In this document: piece after piece, positions 573 to 63,812 of the stretch
Layout: every line of letters begins with the position of its first letter
Position numbering within the stretch: position 1 is the first letter of the stretch
Source of the DNA: Porphyromonas pasteri
GTDB taxonomy: Bacteria; Bacteroidota; Bacteroidia; Bacteroidales; Porphyromonadaceae
Direction of reading: 5' to 3'
Assembly (NCBI RefSeq): GCF_014647755.1
Contig: NZ_BMPU01000002.1
Span: 186,001-250,000, forward strand
Length of the DNA: 64,000 nt
Translations under genes and position numbers: made by a program
The notes under the pieces: model-generated
What the model saw: the letters and a program-made list of their open reading frames with translations, nothing else
Databases searched by the model: none
What the model was told of the DNA's origin: nothing

Positions 573-655
573 TATCACTACTCGTTCGTAGTGCAGACCT
601 ATAGTGGTTCGCGCGTCGACCTATATAGGTCGCGACCTTTAAACCAATAGAGGCA
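573..655 (-). repeat. Partial single iteron array (copy A) of the RACC-N6-GGTY family
   Basis: Elements start at 573 (degenerate, core ACTACT), 596 (GACCTATAGTGGTT), 618 (GACCTATATAGGTC) and, weakly, 642, so the spacing is 23, 22 and 24 bp. The 573-617 part matches array F at 7195-7239 nearly base for base. The third element carries the TATATA core of the compound copies, so this array mixes core types. It lies 150 bp upstream of the uvrC promoter element. The flank at about 461-540 resembles the flanks of copies B, C and D but lacks their CAAAGTTA motif. The stretch 369-709 has no convincing gene. Confidence 0.8.
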
Positions 656-1030: not shown

Positions 1031-1102
1031 GCCCTTTCGGCGGGAGTACGGCGGGGGAGCTACGGGAGGGACAGGTGCGGGCTTGTGGATGGGGGTAGTG
1101 TG

Positions 1103-1410
1103 AACCTATATTGGTCGGCGGGCTGACCTATATAGGTCGTCATCGCGACCTATATAGCTTCGTCGTCGGACCAATATAGGTCAGCCCGCCGACCTATATA
1201 GGTTGATTTATCTTCCTGCGGTAGGGTGGTGGTGCAAGCGGTGTCTATCATAGATAGAGCTATAGCGAAAAGCTACCACGACAAGAAGAGGAGGGGGATA
1301 TGCGAACCAGTACTGGTCGCCGAAGTGACCAGTACTGGTAACTGATATCAACTAGTACTACTTCGCGCTGCGACCAGTACTGGTCAGCCGAGTGACCAGT
1401 ACTGGTTACT
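1103..1410 (-). repeat. Compound iteron repeat, copy B (two five-unit arrays)
   Basis: Array 1 (1103-1204) has 14-bp elements starting at 1103, 1125, 1147, 1169 and 1191, exactly 22 bp apart, with TATATA-like cores. Array 2 (1305-1407) has elements at 1305, 1327, 1350, 1372 and 1394 with AGTACT cores. Perfect elements read RACC-N6-GGTY; the middle element of each array is degenerate (GACCTATATAGCTT and AACTAGTACTACTT). Units 1-2 and 4-5 of array 1, spacers included, form a 36-bp inverted repeat with two mismatches. A conserved linker of about 100 bp containing GGTAGGGTGGTGGTGCAAGC joins the arrays. Homology to copy C continues to about 1530, past a GAGAAAAAGAAA run. No gene is visible in 968-1547. 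Confidence 0.92.
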
Positions 1411-2423: not shown

Positions 2424-3260
2424 CTACTCCAGCTCGATGGGGTTGTAGTAGAAGGTCGGGTTTTTGATTTGGATGCCTGCGCCAGGGAACGCTGTCGTGA
2501 GCGTCTGCACGATATTGGCATGCATGCGCCTACATAGATCACGGACTTTGCTCCGATCTGTGCGCTTGTAGTTGTCTTTATACTTGACGATGGGCAAGGC
2601 CTTGGGGAGCTGTGAGACACTTGTTGCCTCGAAGATGTACTCCCTCTTGGCATCATAAGCCTCCAAGATCAGGCCAGGAGCGTCACCCAAGAGCCACGGG
2701 CCATTGGAGATGGGGATATCCGTCGCTACCCAAGCGGTATAGTCACGGCCTCGGAAGCGTGCCGTAGCCTTCTGACATGAATAGCCGAGTACGTCCTTGC
2801 GCTCATCGGTGAGTGTCCATGACTGGGGGTGTAGCTCATCAGTGTAGATGAGGGTATATCGGTAGGAGTAGACGAAGAGTCTAAAGGTAAGCTCGCTGTA
2901 GGGCTTGGTGCCACTCAGATACTTATAGACCTCCATACCTCCCATTCCCCGCGCCTCGATACCAGGTCCAGCCTCTTGGCTCTCTGCTGCGATAAGCTCC
3001 TGCTGGTTGTCGAGGACGCAGACGTGTCCGAACTTCGAGATCTTCCGCCCGACGAGGAGGTACATCTCGTTCGTCACCTTGTCGTGCTTCTTCGGGTCGA
3101 GGAGGCAGGTCGTCTTGTAGTCAATGCGATAGTTCGCTGAGTCCAGGACGGTGTATTTCCTGATATCGAAGGGATGTATACTGCCGATAGGGCTCTGAGC
3201 ATGGGAGGAGAGGCTTAGTCCGAGGCTCAGTAATAGTGCATAGAGCGCTATTGACTTCAT
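2424..3260 (-). CDS. GLPGLI family secreted protein, divergent motif
   Basis: A 278-residue protein. I chose the ATG at 3260 (MKSIALYALLLSLGLSLSSHAQ) because it begins a clean signal peptide; the frame stays open upstream to 3458 but that part overlaps the receptor gene at 3305 and is not signal-like. The ATG at 3278 (MKDTIS) is an alternative. The family block is present: WTLTDERKDVLGYSCQKA, FRGRDYTAWVATDIPIS, then GDAPGLILEA where most members have GLPGLIL. It lies 33 bp from the neighbouring GLPGLI gene and 44 bp from the receptor, consistent with one transcript. Function unknown. Confidence 0.88.
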   Translation of the reverse strand: MKSIALYALLLSLGLSLSSHAQSPIGSIHPFDIRKYTVLDSANYRIDYKTTCLLDPKKHDKVTNEMYLLVGRKISKFGHVCVLDNQQELIAAESQEAGPGIEARGMGGMEVYKYLSGTKPYSELTFRLFVYSYRYTLIYTDELHPQSWTLTDERKDVLGYSCQKATARFRGRDYTAWVATDIPISNGPWLLGDAPGLILEAYDAKREYIFEATSVSQLPKALPIVKYKDNYKRTDRSKVRDLCRRMHANIVQTLTTAFPGAGIQIKNPTFYYNPIELE

Positions 3261-5990: not shown

Positions 5991-6836
5991 CTACTCTGCC
6001 TCCAGCCACAGCCAAGGGAAGGAGAAGTCTCGATTCTTATTGGTATTCCCAATGTGTAGATTCTTGCCGAGTGTTTGCTCGCAGAAGAGGACCGGCTGCT
6101 TGTGCATACGTAGGATGGTCGCGCGTAGCTTCTCACGCGTAGACTTGATGTGCGGGTAGGTCCAGAAGCGGATCGGTGTGCTCTTATTCTCAACGCCTAT
6201 GCAGGTGAAGACAAAGTATGCCTCCGTATCTTCTACCGCCAGGATGAGCCCCGGCAGTCCGCAGAACTTCCACGGGCCGTCAGAGAGGGGAATATCTGAG
6301 GTGAACCAAGCGATGTACTTCCTCCCACGGAATTCCCCGAGGGCTTTCTGACACGTGTAGCTGAGGATCTTCTTGGTCTCCGACTGGATCTGCCACTTGA
6401 AGTCGGGCAATGCCTCGGTATATTGCCCGTAGCCCGCGCCGAGGAAGAGGCGGTAGGAGGTCGTCAGTACACCTGGCTTGGGGTAGCCCTTGAAGACATC
6501 TTCGGGGAAGGTAATATCACTAAAGCTATCGACCGTCTTCGCACCCTGCTTTATCTCGGCATCCGCTTTCTCGCGGGCTTTTAGGATATCACGGCTATAG
6601 GTCGCAGAGATACGCTTGCCGATGAGTAGCGTCTGCGTGTCCTTATAGGCGACGTAGCTATACTTAGGGTTGGGGTTGAGCTTGGCTGCGATCTGATAGG
6701 TGATCTCATACTTGGCGGTATCGACTACTTGGTACTTATCCGATGGCCCGTAGGAGGTCGGGAATATGTACATCTGGGCAGACAGCGTCAAGGCTTGCAT
6801 TGATAAGCACAGCAAGAAGGCTTTTACGAGTCTCAT
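5991..6836 (-). CDS. GLPGLI family secreted protein, first gene of the cluster
   Basis: A 281-residue protein with signal peptide MRLVKAFLLCLSMQALTLSAQ. The full family signature is present: the KKILSYTCQKALGEFRGRKY block, WFTSDIPLSDGPW and CGLPGLILAVED, around residues 160-210. It is the first gene of the reverse-strand cluster, 37 bp from the receptor start. A promoter-like element with both -7 and -33 parts lies about 200 bp upstream, with iteron array F just beyond. Biochemical role unknown for the family. Confidence 0.92.
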   Translation of the reverse strand: MRLVKAFLLCLSMQALTLSAQMYIFPTSYGPSDKYQVVDTAKYEITYQIAAKLNPNPKYSYVAYKDTQTLLIGKRISATYSRDILKAREKADAEIKQGAKTVDSFSDITFPEDVFKGYPKPGVLTTSYRLFLGAGYGQYTEALPDFKWQIQSETKKILSYTCQKALGEFRGRKYIAWFTSDIPLSDGPWKFCGLPGLILAVEDTEAYFVFTCIGVENKSTPIRFWTYPHIKSTREKLRATILRMHKQPVLFCEQTLGKNLHIGNTNKNRDFSFPWLWLEAE

Positions 6837-7149: not shown

Positions 7150-7253
7150 AACCACTACTTGTTCGTAGTGCAAACCAATAGTGGTACGGGTGCAAACCAC
7201 TACTCGTTCGTAGTGCAGACCTATAGTGGTTCACGCGTCGACTAATAGTGGTC
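7150..7253 (-). repeat. Single iteron array (copy F) with AATAGT/TATAGT cores
   Basis: Five 14-bp elements start at 7150, 7173, 7195, 7218 and 7240 (spacing 23, 22, 23, 22). Units 1 and 3 are AACCACTACTYGTT, units 2 and 4 are AACCAATAGTGGTA and GACCTATAGTGGTT, and unit 5 is GACTAATAGTGGTC. Each odd unit also makes a small hairpin, ACTAC..GTAGT. The lead-in GGGATGC resembles the GATGCG lead-in of the second array in the compound copies. No gene is visible in 6837-7363. Confidence 0.85.
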
Positions 7254-7909: not shown

Positions 7910-8001
7910 AAGCTTGATCTCCGACTTGGTTGAATAGTGTAATCTGCTTGTGCACGAGCCGTTGGCTCGCGAAGCGGCTAAAGACGGGGCTTCTTCGCTA
8001 T

Positions 8002-8009
8002 CAAAGTTA
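8002..8009 (-). promoter_or_regulatory. Repeat-flank -7 promoter element (TAACTTTG)
   Basis: The same TCAAAGTTAGCC flank as at 1023-1030, here 93 bp upstream of the gene at 7364-7909 and 73 bp from the near edge of the iteron repeat. Between promoter and start codon the transcript could form a small hairpin, CGAGCCAACGGCTCG. Confidence 0.5.
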
Positions 8010-8081
8010 GCCCTTTCGGCGGGGAGTATGGCGGGGGAGCTATGGGAGGGAAGGATACGTCTTGGGGAAGGGGGTGGTGTG

Positions 8082-8389
8082 AATCTATATTGGTCGGCGG
8101 GCTGACCTATATAGGTCGTCATCGCGACCTATATAGCTTCGTCGTCGGAGCAATATAGGTCAGCCCGCCGACCAATATAGGTCGATTTATCACCCTGTAG
8201 TAGGGTGGTGGTGCAAGCGGCGTCTATCGCAAATATAGCTATAGCGAAAGGCTGCCACGACAAGAAGAGGAGAGGGATATGCGAACCAGTACTGGTCGCC
8301 GACGTGACCAGTACTGGTAACTGATATCAACCACTACTACTTCGCGCTGCGACCAGTACTGGTCAGCCGAGTGACCAGTACTGGTTACT
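8082..8389 (-). repeat. Compound iteron repeat, copy C
   Basis: Same length (308 bp) and layout as copy B. Array 1 spans 8082-8183 and array 2 spans 8284-8386, each with five elements at 22 or 23 bp. Unit 1 of array 1 is degenerate (AATCTATATTGGTC), and unit 4 reads GAGC where copy B has GACC, so array 1 is more decayed than array 2. The middle unit of array 2 reads AACCACTACTACTT, the same core as the odd units of array F. Homology with copy B extends on the right to about 8500. No gene is visible in 7910-8557. Confidence 0.92.
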
Positions 8390-8482
8390 TTTCCCTCCTT
8401 GTGCGGGTGTGCGGTATGGGGCTGTAGTACAGCACGTTGTGGTGTGCTCACTTGGAGCGCCTTTCCCTGCTGAGAAAAAGAA

Positions 8483-18611: not shown

Positions 18612-18806
18612 AGGCTTTTGGTGGGCTTGCCCGCGAACGTGATGATGCGAGGGCTGACGGTCAATCTCGCCAGCTGCGCCAGCCGTTGGCTCACGAAGCG
18701 CCTAAAGACGGGGCTACTTTGCTATCAAAGTTAGCCTTTTCAGCGGGGAGTGCAGCGGGGGGGCAAGATCGGTGAGGATGCCGTCTTGGGGAAGGGGGGT
18801 GGTGTG

Positions 18807-19107
18807 AACCTATATTGGTCGGCGGGCTGACCTATATAGGTCGTCATCGCGACCTATATAGCTTCGTCGTCGGAGCAATATAGGTCAGCCCGCCGACCTA
18901 TATAGGTCGATTTATCTCCCTGTAGTGGGGTGGTGCAAGCGTCGTCTATCATAGGTATAGCTATAGCGAAAAGCAGTCACGACAAGAAGGGGGGGGATGC
19001 GAACCAGTACTGGTCACCGACGTGACCAGTACTGGTAACAGATATCAACCACTACTACTTCGCGCTGCGACCAGTACTGGTCAGACGAGTGACCAGTACT
19101 GGTTACT
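18807..19107 (-). repeat. Compound iteron repeat, copy D
   Basis: Array 1 spans 18807-18908 and array 2 spans 19002-19104, each with five units at 22/23 bp as in copy B. The linker between them is a few bases shorter. Array 1 units read AACCTATATTGGTC, GACCTATATAGGTC, GACCTATATAGCTT (degenerate centre), GAGCAATATAGGTC and GACCTATATAGGTC. The left flank (about 18682-18806) matches that of copy C and holds the TAACTTTG element at 18726-18733 (reverse strand). The copy lies between the divergent btuB-like and glycogen synthase genes. No gene is visible in 18531-19397. Confidence 0.92.
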
Positions 19108-19316
19108 TTTCCGCCTTCGTAGGCTCTTGAGAAAGAGCACGATACGAAGTACCTCTTGCGAGTCGTGAGAAGTAGCTCAAGTGATGGGTGCTCTTCGTGC
19201 TGATGGCACTGGTGTAGAGCGCGTTGCGCACGATAGGGTAGGGTGCTCCCCGTGGGTGGGTTGGGGCTTGCTAAGGAAATGTAAAAAGGAGATGTGGTAA
19301 TTTGGGGGCGAATGCT

Positions 19317-28838: not shown

Positions 28839-28947
28839 GCAAGAAATCAATCACGGCAACAAGGGGGGGAGAAGGTGCTTCCCACGGCGCTGGGCTTCAG
28901 CCTGCTACGGGCGTGGTGGATGCCGTCTTGCGGATGGGGGTGGTATG

Positions 28948-29256
28948 AACCTATATTGGTCGGCAGGTTGACCTATATAGGTTGTCATCGAGACCTATAT
29001 AGCTTCGTCGTCGGACCAATATAGGTCAACCCGCCGACCAATATAGGTTGATTTATCACCCTGTGGTAGGGTGGTGGTGCAAGCGGTGTCTATCATAGAT
29101 AGAGCTATAGCGAAAGGCTACCACGACAGGACGGAGGAGGGGGGGATGCGAACCAGTACTGGTCGCCGAAGTGACCAGTACTGGTAACTGATATCAACCA
29201 CTACTGCTTCGCGCTGCGACCAGTACTGGTCAGACGAGTGACCAGTACTGGTTACT
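28948..29256 (-). repeat. Compound iteron repeat, copy E
   Basis: Array 1 spans 28948-29049 and array 2 spans 29151-29253, with five units each. Array 1 reads AACCTATATTGGTC, GACCTATATAGGTT, GACCTATATAGCTT, GACCAATATAGGTC, GACCAATATAGGTT. Its first and fourth spacers (GGCAGGTT and AACCCGCC) differ from those of copies B-D (GGCGGGCT and AGCCCGCC), including one paired change that keeps complementarity. The copy lies between the out-of-frame lipoprotein and gap. Nothing else is recognised in 28839-29441. Confidence 0.92.
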
Positions 29257-29441
29257 TTTTACCCTTCGAGAAGGCGCATAGGCAAAGGGCTGGTGAAGGG
29301 GAGCGAAGGAACATCGGGGAGCGGGTCGTCGGCAGGTCGTTGGTGGGGCTTTATGGGGTGGTTTGCGGGGCAAAATGGGCGGTAAGGGCGCACTTACCAA
29401 AATATTTTCGGAAATAAACCATAGGTGTGGATAAATTTCTG

Positions 29442-37830: not shown

Positions 37831-37906
37831 CTTGGTGCGTGGATTTATAATCTTGGTACGTACATCCTATCATCCACGTGCGTAGTCCTAAGATCTACGT
37901 GCGTGG
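37831..37906. repeat. CTACGTGCGTGG array, copy 1
   Basis: Four near-palindromic units with anchor positions 37836 (TGCGTGG), 37857 (TACGTAC), 37879 (TGCGTAG) and 37900 (TGCGTGG), so spacing is 21, 22 and 21 bp. The best units are CCACGTGCGTAG (37874) and CTACGTGCGTGG (37895); spacers are AT-rich (TCCTAAGAT). To the right is a flank GTTTTCGGC..GCTTTTTCTCGTAGAGCTC shared with copy 3. The interval 37569-37995 contains no gene. Confidence 0.8.
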
Positions 37907-37995
37907 ACAAAGTTTTCGGCGTAGTGCTACGCCGCTTTTTCTCGTAGAGCTCGGGGCATTTCCTCGCAGAAGACGTACAGCCATCATATAATGAA

Positions 37996-55646: not shown

Positions 55647-56413
55647 AATAATTTATATAATTTAAAAAATTAAGCGAGTTAATGTGCGAAGTTACCATTT
55701 TCCTCCGAAATAATAACATAGCTCTCAGCAATATGTTCGCTTTTTTAGTGACTTTATTCCGCGGATTTTGCGAATGTACTTCCTGTAATTATCATTGTGA
55801 TCCTCCCGTTGGCCCATAGAGTGGGGATTTTTATCTCAGGAGGAGGGGATGTGTAACAGCGCTGTAAACTCTTGAATGATCGCTCTATATAAATTAGTGT
55901 CTTTGGCTTGAAGAAGGTTTAATCTTATGGTGCTCCCAGGTGCCATCCTATAGAAGAAGTTTTTTTGCTGCGTACGAGAAAACTTGCGTTTGTCTAAGGA
56001 AATAACAGGTGAAGGAGTATGGATTTTAATAAATCTACGTGCGTGGTCTTAAAATCCACGTACGAGGATTCTAAGATCTACGTGCCTGGAGCTAAAGACT
56101 ACGTACGTGGACGAAGGTTTTGCTCTATGTGATCAGAGTTTTTCTCGTGCAGCTCTGGGCTTATTCTCGTATTGTCTTAGTGAATAGGTCGTGGTGGAAT
56201 GGGGCTCCTCCCCGTAGTGCGAGGGGGCATATAGCTCGGGAGGATGCTGTTCCTTATTATAGTGGTGTATATCGGTGTCTCGTGGGAGATATACTTTCTC
56301 TGATAGGTACGAAGCTGGGGGAGTGGTGCGTTTTAGTGGAGCTTGTGGCGCGCGATTTTTGGAGAAAGTACTGCCGATATGACGAAGGTATACGCTTATT
56401 TGTGAAATAATCT
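55647..56413. other. AT-rich intergenic region without a convincing gene
   Basis: No gene is recognised. The 96-codon forward frame at 56120-56410 has no family features and begins in the flank of the repeat, so it is discounted. The only structure is the CTACGTGCGTGG array at 56035-56110 and its right flank GTTTTGCTC..GTTTTTCTCGTGCAGCTC, shared with copy 1. Confidence 0.6.
56035..56110. repeat. CTACGTGCGTGG array, copy 3
   Basis: Units at 56035 (CTACGTGCGTGG), 56056 (CCACGTACGAGG), 56078 (CTACGTGCCTGG) and 56099 (CTACGTACGTGG), spacing 21, 22, 21 bp, with spacers TCTTAAAAT, ATTCTAAGAT and AGCTAAAGA. Same unit number and spacing as copies 1 and 2. Confidence 0.82.
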
Positions 56414-58411: not shown

Positions 58412-58449
58412 GAGCATACCTGACGGGAAGATGCCCTGTCTTAGGTGTG

Positions 58450-58640
58450 TATGCTGAAGGTTCTACCCTCGCTCTGCATTATGTTGCGAGGGCAGATTAA
58501 AAGGGAAGCTGGTGTAAAACCAGCGCTATCCCCGTAGCCGTAAGGTCATCATGGTGCTACTATGAGCCACTGCCCTATACAGGGGTGGGAAGGCGTAGCG
58601 CTTTGGACTGAGCCGGAAGACCTGCCTCCAGCCTTTAAGC
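58450..58640 (+). ncRNA. Cobalamin (B12) riboswitch
   Basis: The conserved blocks are present in order: AAAGGGAAGCTGGTG with TAAAACCAGCGCTATCCCCG (58499-58533), the B12 box GCCACTG (58566-58572), GGGAAGGCG (58588-58596) and GAGCCGGAAGACCTGCC (58610-58626). A hairpin CCCTCGC..GCGAGGG precedes the core. It lies about 200 bp upstream of the binding-protein start; adenosylcobalamin binding normally lowers expression of downstream genes. The 5' and 3' edges are approximate. A 61-codon frame that runs through it (58562-58744) is not a gene. Confidence 0.92.
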
Positions 58641-58842
58641 TTAATAAAGCGTGGGCGGCCAGCGATTGTCTGTGTCTTCGCCTACTCTACGGACTCTCGG
58701 GTAGAAGAGCTGGAGCTTGGTACATGATAATACCATTAGGGTAATGGGGCTTCTCGCGAAGTGACCTGATACAGCTTACCCTTCCTCTATGCCTATACTC
58801 GCAGATCAATGTAATTTGTCTTGCGGCAGCATTTGGCATAGT

Positions 58843-60015
58843 ATGAAACTCAGTACATCCATTTTTATCGGGATACTTTCCCTATTCGTTAGCTTTACCT
58901 CCTGTGGACGAGGTCAGCAGCACACGCAGCAGGGTGATACGATCTTGGAGCGTGATTCCATAGATTTCAATTTCCCTGTCACTGTGGAGTATGCGCACGG
59001 ATTCACCGTAGCCAATCACCCCGACTATAAGGAGCTCGTCATGTATAAGCCTGGTACGCGTGATACCGTCGCCGACTACATCCTTTATCTTCGCAGCCGT
59101 GAGCAGCCCAGAGTGGCGCATCCCCAAGCGGTATATATTCCTGTCCCAGCGCGTAATCTGGCGACGAGCTCTTCCCCCCATGTGGGGGCAGTCGCTGTCT
59201 TGGGCTTGCAGGAGGTACTTGTCGCCGTGTCTGATCCTGAGAAGGTCAATGACAGCCTGACGCGTCGCCGTATCCAAGAAGGTAAGGTGCAGCGTATAGG
59301 ACGTGGAATGAGTAAGGATATAGAGCGTATCATCGGTTTGCATCCAGACGTTTTTCTACAAGACTTGTATAGTGGTACGGAGAAGGATACGGATCTGGTG
59401 GCATCAGGGATCAATATCGTCTACTTCAATAACTGGAAGGAACAGGATCTGCTCGGACGAGCAGAATGGCTTAAGGTCATAGGCTTGCTCTACGGACGCA
59501 ACGCTGTGGCTGACTCCGCCTTCCGTCAAATGGCATCCAACTATCAGATAGCAGCCAAGCAGGCTAAGGGGACTTCTCGAATCGTACCTGTCATGTATGG
59601 GTTGGACTATAAGGGCGTCTGGTATGTACCAGGCGAATACTCATACATTGTCAAAGCCTTCTCTGATGCTGCCATTAGCTGTGACTTCATACCGGGACAA
59701 ATAGATAGTCGTCCCAGCAGCTTCGAATATGTCTTTCGGCGCAATCAGCATAAGAAGATATGGCTTTGCTTGATGACGGGTAAGCTGGATAAGCTCTCGG
59801 ACTTCCTTGCGCTCAATGAGCGCTATATTCATTTCGATGCTGTACGTGAGGGGGAAGTATGGGTAGACCGCAAGACGCTCAATTCAGAGGGTGGGAATGA
59901 TTTCTGGGAGAGTGGACCCTACCATCCTGATTTAGTCCTCAAGGACTTCATCAAGATAGCTCACCCCGAGCTTCTCCCGGGCTATGAGACTCGCTACTGG
60001 ATGCGCCTTAGGTAG
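58843..60015 (+). CDS. Substrate-binding lipoprotein of a cobalamin-regulated locus
   Basis: A 390-residue lipoprotein; start at ATG 58843 (MKLSTSIFIGILSLFVSFTS, lipobox FTSC) rather than the upstream start at 58789. It parallels the protein at 36408-37568 over its whole length: FTVANHPDYKELVMYKPG, VPARNLATSSSPHVGAVAVL, IGRGMSKDIERIIGLHPDVF, YGLDYKGVWYVPGEYSYIV and FWESGPYHPDLVLKDFIKIA. No permease or ATPase is adjacent within the window. The B12 riboswitch upstream and cobN downstream point to cobalt or corrinoid handling, though it could use the permease at 35370. Confidence 0.9.
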   Translation: MKLSTSIFIGILSLFVSFTSCGRGQQHTQQGDTILERDSIDFNFPVTVEYAHGFTVANHPDYKELVMYKPGTRDTVADYILYLRSREQPRVAHPQAVYIPVPARNLATSSSPHVGAVAVLGLQEVLVAVSDPEKVNDSLTRRRIQEGKVQRIGRGMSKDIERIIGLHPDVFLQDLYSGTEKDTDLVASGINIVYFNNWKEQDLLGRAEWLKVIGLLYGRNAVADSAFRQMASNYQIAAKQAKGTSRIVPVMYGLDYKGVWYVPGEYSYIVKAFSDAAISCDFIPGQIDSRPSSFEYVFRRNQHKKIWLCLMTGKLDKLSDFLALNERYIHFDAVREGEVWVDRKTLNSEGGNDFWESGPYHPDLVLKDFIKIAHPELLPGYETRYWMRLR

Positions 60016-60080: not shown

Positions 60081-63000
60081 ATGTCCTCTCAGCCCTATCG
60101 TATCCTTTATATTCTGGATGCACATACAGCTGTCGCCCCCTCGGAAGATGATCCCCGACTCCAGGTAGACCGCATCGCTATCTCTCGCCTCAATGCGGGA
60201 GATGACCGCGCTTGGGCCCTTACGGAGCAGGCGCACTTCATCCTCGTACTGACTCATGGATCGGTCTCTTGCTTCAGAGGCCTGCAGCGACTCATCTCAG
60301 GCATGCGGATGGAGCAGACACTCTTCGTCCATAATAATATGGAGGATGAGTGTACGGCCCTGATGCCGCAGCTGCGCCTGAGTGCTGCTGACTACCTCAC
60401 GATACAGCGCTATGTCAAGTGCTATGATAGGGCTAATGCCACACAACTACATCGCTTCCTGGCGGCGCGCTTTGGGGGATTCGATTGGGCTTATGCGCCA
60501 GCGCAATATCCTCGCTGGCATGGGCTCTATGGTTATAGCGAAGAGGAAGAGCCTCAGCGCTTAGCTGAGGTCGTAGAGGCTCGGAGAGCAGGGCGGAGCA
60601 TCATCGGGGTGATTATCCCCTTCTACCTCTATCGATCCGATAATCTCCGTCATGTGGATGCTTTGCTCGCGGCGCTACAGCATTTGGGAGTCGAGCCACA
60701 TGCTTTGTTTTCCACGGGAGCGGAAGACGCTGTGACGGGTGAGCAAGGGATTAGCTATGCGCTGGATAGTTACTTCCGTAGTGAAGGAGAGGTCTTACCT
60801 CACTGCATCATCAATCTGATGCCTTATGCTTTGGGCATCTTTGAGCGTAGTGGTGCGATTTATACTCAGCCAGAAGATGCCTCTACAGGTATCCTCCGTC
60901 AGCTGGCGCTTCCCGTCCTGCAGACTTATGCAACGAACTATAGTGCAGAGGAGTACCATAGTCGTGTAGATGGACTGGATACCATTGGCCTGATCTCCAG
61001 TGTTTGCTATCCCGAACTTGATGGACAGGTAGATGCCTACCCCATTGCCACACGCGAGCTGAACGAGGAGGGTCTGCCTTACTTTGCTCCGCTCGATGAC
61101 GAACTCCAATGGGTCGCCAGGCTGTCTGTACGCTGGGCGCAACTACAACGTAAGCCTCAGGAGAAGAAGCGCATTGCTATTATCTTCCACAATATGCCTC
61201 CGCGCAACGATAGTATAGGTTGTGCTGCGGGCTTGGATAGTCCAGCCTCGGTCTACCACCTCATCAATAGGCTACGTGAAGAGGGCATAGACCTACCGCA
61301 CCATTATGCTGATGGAGATGATATCATTAGGCAGATTATCCGTGCGGTGACGAATGATCACTCTTGGCTGGATCCTCGAGAGGTGATAAGACGTGCTGTG
61401 GATCGTATTCCCTCGAAGCTTTATGAAGGATGGTTCGATGCACTCACTCCAGAGGTACAGCAGCGCTTGGTCGCCTCTTGGGGAGAAGCCCCAGGGACAT
61501 TTCATGTCGTGGAGGGAGAGATGCCTGTGCCTGGGATGATCAATGGAAACGTCTTCATCGGCTTGCAACCACCTCGAGGCTATGAGGAGCATGCTGAAGC
61601 CATCTACCACAGTACGGATATAGTCTGTCCCCATTACTACATAGCTTTCTATCGCTGGATACGCTATGTCTTCCAGGCTGATCTCTTCATCCATGTCGGT
61701 ACGCATGGGTCGCTGGAGTGGCTACCAGGTAAGGAAAAGGCTCTCTCTTGCTCCTGCTTTCCCCAGCTCAATACGCTGGATATGCCCCACCTATATATCT
61801 ACCATACGGCAGTCATAGGCGAAGCTATTCAGGCGAAGCGTCGCTCGGCAGCCGTCTTGCTCCATCATATGGAGCCGGCAATGCGCGAAGGGGGAGCTTA
61901 TGGCCCCTTGGCAGAATTTGATGTACGACTCAATAGCTACATCAGTGGAGCTGTCGCCGAGAGTCAACGTCCTATACTACGTGAAGCCCTCCTTGAAGAA
62001 GCACGCTCCTTAGAGCTGCATCAAGACCTTGGCTATTCACGAGAAGGCGATGTCGAAGAGAGTTTCTTCATTGAGCTTCATAACTGGCTCGCGGATCTCA
62101 AAGCCTCTATGGTGCGTGATGGCTTGCACATCTTCGGTCAGCCCCCTATGGAGGAGCGGATGGAGGCGAGCATACGTATGCTGCTCCGCTTGCCGCACGG
62201 ATCGGTGACGACCTTGTTGGATGGTCTGGCTCGATACTATGGCTATACAGAGGAGTCTTTATTAATGGAGCTCGATGCTAAGATAAGCCCAACGCATACG
62301 GCGTCGATGATGATCGATGAACTGACGGAACGAGGGCAACAGCTTATTGAAGCTATGCTTGCGGATGGCTTTATAGCACAGCCTGCAGGCGAGCTGTTAC
62401 AGACGATACTTGGTGATTGTCTCGGAGAGGAGAAGTCTTTGCGAGGCGTCTTACAGCTTGCGATAGATGGGGTCTATCCACGTCTCTGTCGCATCACCGA
62501 GGAGTTGGATCACTGTGCCCTCGGCGTGCGTGGGGGCTTTGTCCCGCCTTCTAAGGGAGGTAGTCCGAGCAGAGGTCAGTTGGAGATTCTCCCCACAGGG
62601 CGCAATATGTATGCGATCGATCCCAGTGAGATCCCCTCACATGCGGCCTATCAGATAGGTGTGCGGCTTGGTCAGCAGCTCTTGGAGAAGCATCTTAATA
62701 CCTCTGGAAGTCTACCTGAAAGCACTGCTTTTGTTCTCTATTCAGGTGACCAAATGCGTACCCATGGCGAAGATATTGGTGAGATACTTTGGTTGATGGG
62801 GCTACGTCCTCAGTGGCTCAGTGAGCACTCCGATAAGGTCATCGGTCTGGAGGTTATCCCCTTGTCAGAGCTCGGACGTCCTCGTCTGGATGTCGTGTCA
62901 CGTATCTCAGGGCTCCTTCGTGATACTTTCCCGACACTGATCACGCTACTTGACGAGGCGGTTCAGCTTGTGCTCTCCCTTGATGAGCCTATAGAAGCGA

Positions 63001-63812
63001 ACTGGGTGAAAAAGCACTATGAGGAGGAAGTGGCTGAGCTTCGAGCTGCAGGGATAGATCCAGGGACAGCACGCCAAGAAGCTAAGCTCCGAGTCTTCGG
63101 TTGTCCTCCAGGTACCTATGGTGGGGGGGTAGCTGTTTTGGTAGAGACGAAGCAATGGCAGAGTAGTGATGATCTTGGTGAGACGGCTATTACCTGGGGG
63201 TGTCATGCTTATAGCCAAGAGCTACACGGCCGTGTATCTCGAGGGGCTTTTGAGCGTAAGCTTGCTCGGGTCGAGGCGACGGTCAAGAATCAGAATATCA
63301 TTGGCTTTGATCTCTATGATATTGATGACGAATACATCTATCACGGAGGAATCATCGCTGCCGTAAAGAAGCTACGGGGTCAGGCTCCTATGTCCTATTA
63401 TGGTAATACCTCTGATCCGCGGCATAGTGTCGTGCGTACGCTTTCTGAAGAGTCGGCACGGGTGCTGCGCTCCCGCCTTCTTAACCCGCTATGGATCGAG
63501 GGACTTAAGCGCCATGGATATCGTGGGGCCTATGATGTGGCATACAATATGGATAATGTCTTTGGGTGGGATGCGACTGCGGACAGTGTCTTAGATTGGA
63601 ACTACGAAGCCCTTGCCTCACATTTTCTGGGAGATCCCTCCAATAGGGAGTGGCTCAAGTCTGCCAATCCTTGGGCACTCTATGAGATAGCTCAGCGTCT
63701 CTTGGAAGCTGCTCAGCGAGGTATGTGGCAAGCCAAGCCTGAGACGATAGAGATGATTACTGAGATATACCTCTCCTGTGAGGGGGTGCTGGAGGAGGGT
63801 AGTTCGGGATAA
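60081..63812 (+). CDS. cobN: CobN-type cobaltochelatase large subunit
   Basis: A 1243-residue CobN/ChlH-family protein with the expected landmarks: VIIPFYLYRSDNLRHVDALL, IAIIFHNMPPRNDSIGCAAG, LFIHVGTHGSLEWLPGKEKA near residue 545, NLADL-like HNWLADLKASMVRDGLHIFG, LRVFGCPPGTYGGGV and YDVAYNMDNVFGWDATAD. CobN inserts cobalt into the corrin ring using ATPase partners. In Porphyromonas, a CobN homologue (HmuS) instead works in heme handling, but the riboswitch here favours the cobalt/corrinoid role. It lies 65 bp after the binding-protein gene, and a chlI-type gene follows. Confidence 0.92.
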   Translation: MSSQPYRILYILDAHTAVAPSEDDPRLQVDRIAISRLNAGDDRAWALTEQAHFILVLTHGSVSCFRGLQRLISGMRMEQTLFVHNNMEDECTALMPQLRLSAADYLTIQRYVKCYDRANATQLHRFLAARFGGFDWAYAPAQYPRWHGLYGYSEEEEPQRLAEVVEARRAGRSIIGVIIPFYLYRSDNLRHVDALLAALQHLGVEPHALFSTGAEDAVTGEQGISYALDSYFRSEGEVLPHCIINLMPYALGIFERSGAIYTQPEDASTGILRQLALPVLQTYATNYSAEEYHSRVDGLDTIGLISSVCYPELDGQVDAYPIATRELNEEGLPYFAPLDDELQWVARLSVRWAQLQRKPQEKKRIAIIFHNMPPRNDSIGCAAGLDSPASVYHLINRLREEGIDLPHHYADGDDIIRQIIRAVTNDHSWLDPREVIRRAVDRIPSKLYEGWFDALTPEVQQRLVASWGEAPGTFHVVEGEMPVPGMINGNVFIGLQPPRGYEEHAEAIYHSTDIVCPHYYIAFYRWIRYVFQADLFIHVGTHGSLEWLPGKEKALSCSCFPQLNTLDMPHLYIYHTAVIGEAIQAKRRSAAVLLHHMEPAMREGGAYGPLAEFDVRLNSYISGAVAESQRPILREALLEEARSLELHQDLGYSREGDVEESFFIELHNWLADLKASMVRDGLHIFGQPPMEERMEASIRMLLRLPHGSVTTLLDGLARYYGYTEESLLMELDAKISPTHTASMMIDELTERGQQLIEAMLADGFIAQPAGELLQTILGDCLGEEKSLRGVLQLAIDGVYPRLCRITEELDHCALGVRGGFVPPSKGGSPSRGQLEILPTGRNMYAIDPSEIPSHAAYQIGVRLGQQLLEKHLNTSGSLPESTAFVLYSGDQMRTHGEDIGEILWLMGLRPQWLSEHSDKVIGLEVIPLSELGRPRLDVVSRISGLLRDTFPTLITLLDEAVQLVLSLDEPIEANWVKKHYEEEVAELRAAGIDPGTARQEAKLRVFGCPPGTYGGGVAVLVETKQWQSSDDLGETAITWGCHAYSQELHGRVSRGAFERKLARVEATVKNQNIIGFDLYDIDDEYIYHGGIIAAVKKLRGQAPMSYYGNTSDPRHSVVRTLSEESARVLRSRLLNPLWIEGLKRHGYRGAYDVAYNMDNVFGWDATADSVLDWNYEALASHFLGDPSNREWLKSANPWALYEIAQRLLEAAQRGMWQAKPETIEMITEIYLSCEGVLEEGSSG

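Follow-up and report, generated by a model that had tools for sequence, protein, structure and literature searches.

The window, by which we mean the whole 64,000-nucleotide stretch analysed here (G000:C2:186001-250000, in a genome of 2.17 Mb on nine contigs), holds four intergenic copies of a compound repeat, each built from two arrays of short palindromes, and the four copies can be aligned end to end. The first array of each copy starts at 1104, 8083, 18808 and 28949 and runs for 100 bp in steps of 22-22-22-22, while the second starts at 1306, 8285, 19003 and 29152 and runs for 101 bp in steps of 22-23-22-22. The former are T-type arrays with TATATA-like cores (1104..1203, 8083..8182, 18808..18907 and 28949..29048) and the latter G-type arrays with AGTACT cores (1306..1406, 8285..8385, 19003..19103 and 29152..29252); this assignment of cores, and the one 23-bp step in the second array, were already given in the initial annotation and are confirmed. 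In the G-type array at 1306..1406, with elements at 1306, 1328, 1351 (degenerate), 1373 and 1395, that single step contains an AT-containing 11-bp spacer. The T-type array of the third copy is flanked by genes for a TonB-dependent receptor (-) and glycogen synthase (+), and that of the fourth by genes for an outer-membrane protein (-) and GAPDH (+).

The initial annotation described four copies of two five-element arrays, and both the copies and the arrays are real, but the third element is worn in every one of them (ACCTATATAGCT in the first array; ACTAGTACTACT, ACCACTACTACT or ACCACTACTGCT in the second), leaving four good elements, sometimes fewer, around a worn centre. Two further arrays had been overlooked, a short mixed array of three elements (TATAGT, TATATA and AATAGA cores) at 597..654 and a C-type array of five elements in 22-23 bp steps (ACTACT/AATAGT/TATAGT cores) at 7151..7252. 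A conserved flank, GGGGGTAGTGTGA, occupies 1080..1103 with a worn palindrome 22 bp, or one step, outside the array, and many copies in the rest of the genome have the same type of flank, mirrored, at their opposite end as well. The compound copies, taken with their flanks (1020-1480, 8001-8460, 18725-19112 and 28904-29258), are ~90% alike over 350-460 bp. This cluster of four, on one strand and within 28 kb, appears to have arisen by recent duplication on the spot, which sets it apart from the other arrays. Two paralogues with a Porph_ging domain, at 1548-2390 and 5991-6836 (-), each stand beside arrays; both match PNGase_F-II_N, the one at 1548-2390 below the cut-off.

The window contains 46 occurrences of the motif ACCNNNNNNGGT, a count reached by none of 100 shuffles (11.6 ± 3.5). 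The four compound copies account for 29 of these sites and the two further arrays for 4, which leaves 13 outside arrays, the number expected by chance (11.6). It had been proposed that the six-base core is exchanged as a block between constant arms. Free swapping is not seen: TA is central in essentially every element, with only A or T at positions 4 and 9. The refined motif that follows, ACCWNTANWGGT (ACC-WNTANW-GGT), has 47 matches in the window with at most one mismatch, against 3.9 expected. These observations bear on the suggestion that ACC-N6-GGT is a restriction-modification site, the arrays serving as methylation or restriction decoys. The motif does have the form of a bipartite Type II site, and ACC-N6-GGT is the specificity of the enzyme HgiEII, but the N6 core is not free, lone sites in the window are neither avoided nor enriched, and in relatives the arms of the palindromes are separated by 7 or 8 bp or have another sequence altogether. 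We regard this explanation as very improbable.

The arrays extend well beyond the window. Pairs of ACC-N6-GGT exactly 22 bp apart number 200 genome-wide, against 1 for the reversed pattern; pairs of the refined motif at that distance number 196, against 0 for the reversed-pattern control and 0 in 25 other members of the genus. Across all 85 thousand GTDB species the motif pair of this genome is found at only 14 scattered loci. Our array statistics are drawn from targeted or sampled stretches together with genome-wide searches of this kind: 88 chains of at least two elements were extracted from 353 kb of sequence, most of which surrounds places already known, and an unbiased 200 kb held 7 arrays with at least three elements, or ~76 per genome. 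Combining the latter figure with the 196 pairs, at ~2 exact pairs per array, gives roughly 75-110 arrays in the genome, all intergenic by gene calls made here with a simple codon-usage script that is subject to some wrong-strand errors. The typical array is ~100 bp long with five nominal elements, and a single intergenic gap often holds arrays of two or three types. Three types are recognized. The T type has TATATA cores and steps of 22-22-22-22; the G type has AGTACT cores and one spacer of 11 bp, usually with an AT-rich stretch in it; and the C type has AATAGT/ACTATT cores at 22-23 bp.

The placement of the arrays is ordinary. Co-oriented genes flank 45 arrays, divergent genes 20 and convergent genes 7, close to the shares among gaps of at least 250 bp (71, 39 and 12), and in co-oriented gaps no array comes closer than 71 bp to the start of the next gene. 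G arrays do have an orientation, but one independent of the genes (4 same, 9 opposite). A promoter or terminator role was rejected on this lack of bias. An origin in phages or plasmids was likewise set aside, as phage and plasmid records hold no array matches and viral contigs hold two scattered single ones.

What is conserved within the arrays is the palindrome. Across 18 T arrays, identity is 86-96% in the palindromes, 58-61% in the outer spacers and 34-40% in the inner spacers, and falls to 26%, the level of chance, in DNA 25-60 bp outside. The best-kept elements are those at the array ends and the worst-kept those at the centre, with mean mismatches from first to fifth element of 0.06, 0.28, 0.50, 0.22 and 0.22 in T arrays and of 0.14, 0.29, 1.10, 0.76 and 0.10 in G arrays. 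Outside the ends lies a flank rich in G (GGGGTGGTGTGA in T arrays, GGAGGAAAAACGA in G arrays) followed ~22 bp out by a worn palindrome in register, often mirrored at the opposite end; mirror symmetry about the centre is seen in complete T arrays and in many flanks, as would be expected of a strip with two equal ends. Within elements, half-sites pair as AG-AG, as TA-TA or TA-AA, and as AA-AC, with AA/AA almost absent. In mixed arrays this coupling amounts to 0.53 bits across the core against 0.28 across the spacer (shuffle maxima 0.14 and 0.18), so that the core-centred palindrome is the unit; a dimer site centred on the spacer, a model prompted by the constant 10-bp gap, was rejected for the same reason. 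The arrays present dyad sites at fixed spacing under sequence constraint, as expected of a cooperative protein-binding array.

The spacing itself is nearly, but not rigidly, fixed. The nearest exact elements are 22 bp apart in 100 cases and 23 bp apart in 10, with multiples at 44-45 and 66-67. In this species and in one congener (G014) the gap from GGT to the next ACC is 10 bp, and palindromes of 12, 13 and 14 bp give pitches of 22, 23 and 24 bp. The initial annotation had argued that a period of two helical turns places every element on the same face of the DNA, but this does not hold in general: the pitch in G014 is exactly 24 bp (32 of 32 neighbouring pairs) and that of another array family there 23 bp, and a 24-bp pitch makes successive sites shift round the helix.

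Palindromes in tandem may also pair with one another, and the arrays might act as RNA or single-stranded DNA, folding back into a ~100-nt hairpin that would serve as an mRNA end, an RNase III substrate or a structural RNA. The predicted folds are very stable (-64 to -83 kcal/mol, z -6 to -11), but stable folding is common to any set of repeated palindromes, and native arrays gain nothing over chimeras with swapped spacers (-66.9 versus -70.9 kcal/mol for T, -68.5 versus -70.7 for G). Some compensatory changes are found between the outer spacers, 1 and 4, where 31 cells are changed on both sides against 20.0 ± 3.7 in shuffles and 1 of 500 shuffles is as high, whereas the inner spacers and the flanks show less pairing than shuffled ones and cores such as AATAGT break the internal pairing. 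The arrays have no preferred orientation relative to genes, and Rfam returns no match to them. The sole Rfam match in the window is a cobalamin riboswitch (RF00174, 109 bits) at 58441-58643 (+), upstream of genes at 58789-60015 and 60081-63812. The foldback hairpin is weakly supported at best, and we consider it improbable, although the change in the outer arms is not predicted by a pure binding-site model and counts against one.

The initial annotation held that occurrence of the arrays in this assembly alone would refute its reading, and a scan of the genus shows that this is so for the sequence and not for the architecture. Relatives within the genus and family were sampled as 20-kb stretches totalling 1.35 Mb, in which self-similarity unrelated to codon periodicity peaks at a lag of 22 (52 regions), with 18 regions at 23 and 32 at 44; the other non-codon lags below 43 have 0-5 regions each, about 1 per comparable lag. 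The palindromes concerned include GTCCTTTATAAAGGAC, AACTATATAGTT, GAAACTNNAGTTTC, CCACGTGG, GATTTATATATAAATC, TGCGGAATNNATTCCGCA and others. The control for palindromicity was not clean, since p <0.05 is reached by 64% of the 22/23 repeats but also by 40% of other periods, and the case for palindromes in the relatives therefore rests on the sequences themselves and on genome-wide counts. The counts bear out species privacy. At a pitch of 24 bp, CCCATNNATGGG occurs 66 times in G014, once in G011 and in none of the other 24 genomes; CCTACNGTRGG at 23 bp occurs 136 times in G014 and nowhere else in the genus set; and TTCCACNNGTGGAA at 22 bp occurs 15 times in G025 and nowhere else in that set. 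We take G025 to be Porphyromonas gingivalis on the strength of its 107 copies of the BrickBuilt repeat (PMC4596501), and its 22-bp arrays carry TTTCCACNNGTGGAAA and GATTTATATATAAATC.

At three orthologous gaps (C1:416219, one near C1:584480, and C2:204808, where the window copy at 18807 lies) ACC-N6-GGT arrays are found here and CCTACNGTAGG or CCCATNNATGGG in G014, the gap at 18807 being one in which G014 carries a CCTACNGTAGG array. In two other orthologous gaps G014 has no array, and with only 14 testable gaps the association is not significant; we give rewriting of the palindrome in place as an example rather than as an established rule. A few conserved proteins had made G014 seem a very near relative, but its median amino-acid identity is 84%, and we accordingly make no claim on the speed of palindrome change. 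Outside the family, arrays at 22-23 bp are rarer and still present (6 regions in 364 kb, 23 stretches). A genome from another family of the order (G048; L192-L196) has adjacent, clearly palindromic 22-bp arrays of ACC-N6-GGT and CTCTTCACGNNGAGT, and the build may be older than the Porphyromonadaceae. In a distant member of the Bacteroidales (G096, L211:13626-13892) we also observed a near-perfect 22-bp tandem repeat, ACCTTGGTAGCCATATATACTC, in ~9 copies.

On a mobile-element explanation, the arrays would be parts or remnants of MITE-like elements, the palindromes binding or target sites of a transposase, and the copy number a product of selfish spread. BrickBuilt, a 23-nt minisatellite carried by a P. 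gingivalis MITE of IS5 type (PMC4596501), shares this build, with TCTCATATGAGA every 23 bp, and the present genome has a MITE-like family of its own, ~325 bp long, with 20 copies in about 0.55 Mb, an GAGACTGTTGC end and an internal CCACGTACGTAG array at a pitch of about 22 bp. Examples are found at L082 (about 2640-3000), L008 (about 1560-1900) and ~18 other places in the genome, and the 7 copies in the unbiased 200 kb correspond to roughly 75 per genome. The end is of the type described for ISPg4 and MITEPgRS (IS5) in PMC4596501. In about half of the 20 copies the junction shows a half-palindrome, ACCTATA or ACCAATA, as though the element had gone into a T-array palindrome, and the genome has three matches to DDE_Tnp_1 (PF01609), one of them interrupted by stops. 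Short arrays of another palindrome (CTACGTGCGTGG / CTACGTACGTGG, 21-22 bp) were seen in the window at 37833-37907 and 56031-56110; their palindrome is the motif found inside the MITE-like repeat, here without the rest of it.

This family indicates that mobile elements use, carry or derive from arrays, and its palindrome array, by keeping a mobile origin possible, counts against a docking function. Yet no target-site duplication was found at any boundary or offset of 45 T and G arrays, and, apart from one worn palindrome, most arrays lack a leader, a tail and a terminal repeat. The arrays do not have the fixed ends with terminal inverted repeats by which a MITE is defined; flank conservation fades after the worn palindrome ~22 bp out, with no common end. 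A copied unit, moreover, should keep its spacers, and here the spacers have diverged almost to chance and the palindromes have not. We judge selfish spread unlikely, if well worth keeping in view. REP/BIME-type repeats moved by a Y1 (RAYT) transposase would also be high-copy, intergenic, palindromic and species-specific; however, the Y1 transposase (PF01797) is absent from this genome and from most array-carrying members of the genus, and the array alignments show perfect 12-bp dyads with no GTAG/CGTC-tagged stem-loop, not hairpins of 20-40 nt. Such an origin seems extremely unlikely.

We tentatively favour, at somewhat less than an even chance, the reading that the arrays are cooperative docking strips for a putative fast-evolving dimeric DNA-binding protein. 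Each strip would offer about five palindromic sites of dimer type at a fixed gap, to be filled side by side and cooperatively by one genome-encoded protein or a small set of paralogues. The palindrome would be the recognition unit and the spacer would set only distance; the outermost sites would matter most, with the centre tolerant of change. If the sequence preference of the protein shifts fast, a species would keep the build and rewrite the palindrome throughout its genome. The output would probably be felt at the level of the chromosome, as a domain boundary, in compaction or by insulating adjacent transcription units, rather than in one set of genes. The conservation of palindromes over spacers, the kept ends, the coupling across the core and the near-fixed spacing all support docking, as do the mirror symmetry, the lack of any native gain in folding, the exclusivity of this palindrome and of three from other species, and the ordinary location in long gaps. 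The cooperative protein-binding array of the initial annotation survives as the best reading, the tested sequence-level predictions borne out, but it is weakened in that no gene family recurs among the neighbour genes and no candidate binding protein was found. It is also strained by the three core types in one genome, which one protein may not serve, and by pitches of 22, 23 or 24 bp, which are hard to fit to one rigid oligomer on one face of the DNA.

Several known systems resemble these arrays in part. Plasmid iterons and phage operator arrays have ~3-7 sites at ~22-24 bp with cooperative occupancy, those of the RK2 type being spaced 22-23 bp, but they lie at one or a few loci beside their own initiator or repressor gene, whereas the present arrays form roughly 75-110 strips with no linked gene. 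CRISPR was rejected on the spacers, which are 10-11 bp long here and would have to be unique and 25-45 bp long. REP/BIME elements (PMC3733652) likewise consist of many intergenic palindromes in species-private families; the arrays differ from them in having no Y1 transposase or tag, a fixed pitch of 22-24 bp and several near-identical palindromes per site. The initial annotation knew of no named element with this structure, and this was nearly right: species-private palindromes at fixed pitch are undescribed in the open-access literature searched, an absence that does not prove novelty, and the related accounts found there are the BrickBuilt paper (PMC4596501) and general papers on P. gingivalis repeats.

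BrickBuilt comes closest, having the same build with another palindrome. It is intergenic and dispersed, belongs to the same genus (PMC4596501) and has a 23-bp tandem unit that holds the 12-bp palindrome TCTCATATGAGA. Its consensus, AGAYCATARTATCCTCTCRTRTG, has 0 copies in the present genome, 107 in G025 and 10 in a relative (G009), and is here limited to these two, which fits the same pattern of private palindromes. The palindrome, perfect over 12 bp, spans the unit junction in both genomes (L217-L219) and goes unmentioned in the portions of PMC4596501 consulted. BrickBuilt differs in that its units are near-identical, spacer included, run to ~23 copies and are framed by a leader, a tail and IS5-type ends (PMC4596501), whereas the arrays described here have diverged spacers and ~five units, without such ends or target duplications. 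Tandem direct repeats of 22, 23 and 41 nt are on record for the genome of P. gingivalis W83 (cited in PMC4596501), and these probably include the P. gingivalis members of the array class (TTTCCACNNGTGGAAA, GATTTATATATAAATC). In the text of that source consulted they are reported as tandem repeats only, with palindromy, fixed spacing and species privacy undescribed.

Most repeats are conserved in their sequence. These keep their geometry and have a sequence private to each species, a combination which points towards a reader of rapidly changing specificity and which groups BrickBuilt with the unexplained 22-bp P. gingivalis repeats as one class. It is possible, if rather doubtful, that the Porphyromonadaceae, and perhaps other Bacteroidales, carry in this way a previously undescribed class of genome-wide landmarks driven by a fast-evolving DNA-binding protein, in which 3-7 palindromes at 22-24 bp keep their build and are rewritten in each species, as a bacterial counterpart of PRDM9 hotspots or centromere satellites.
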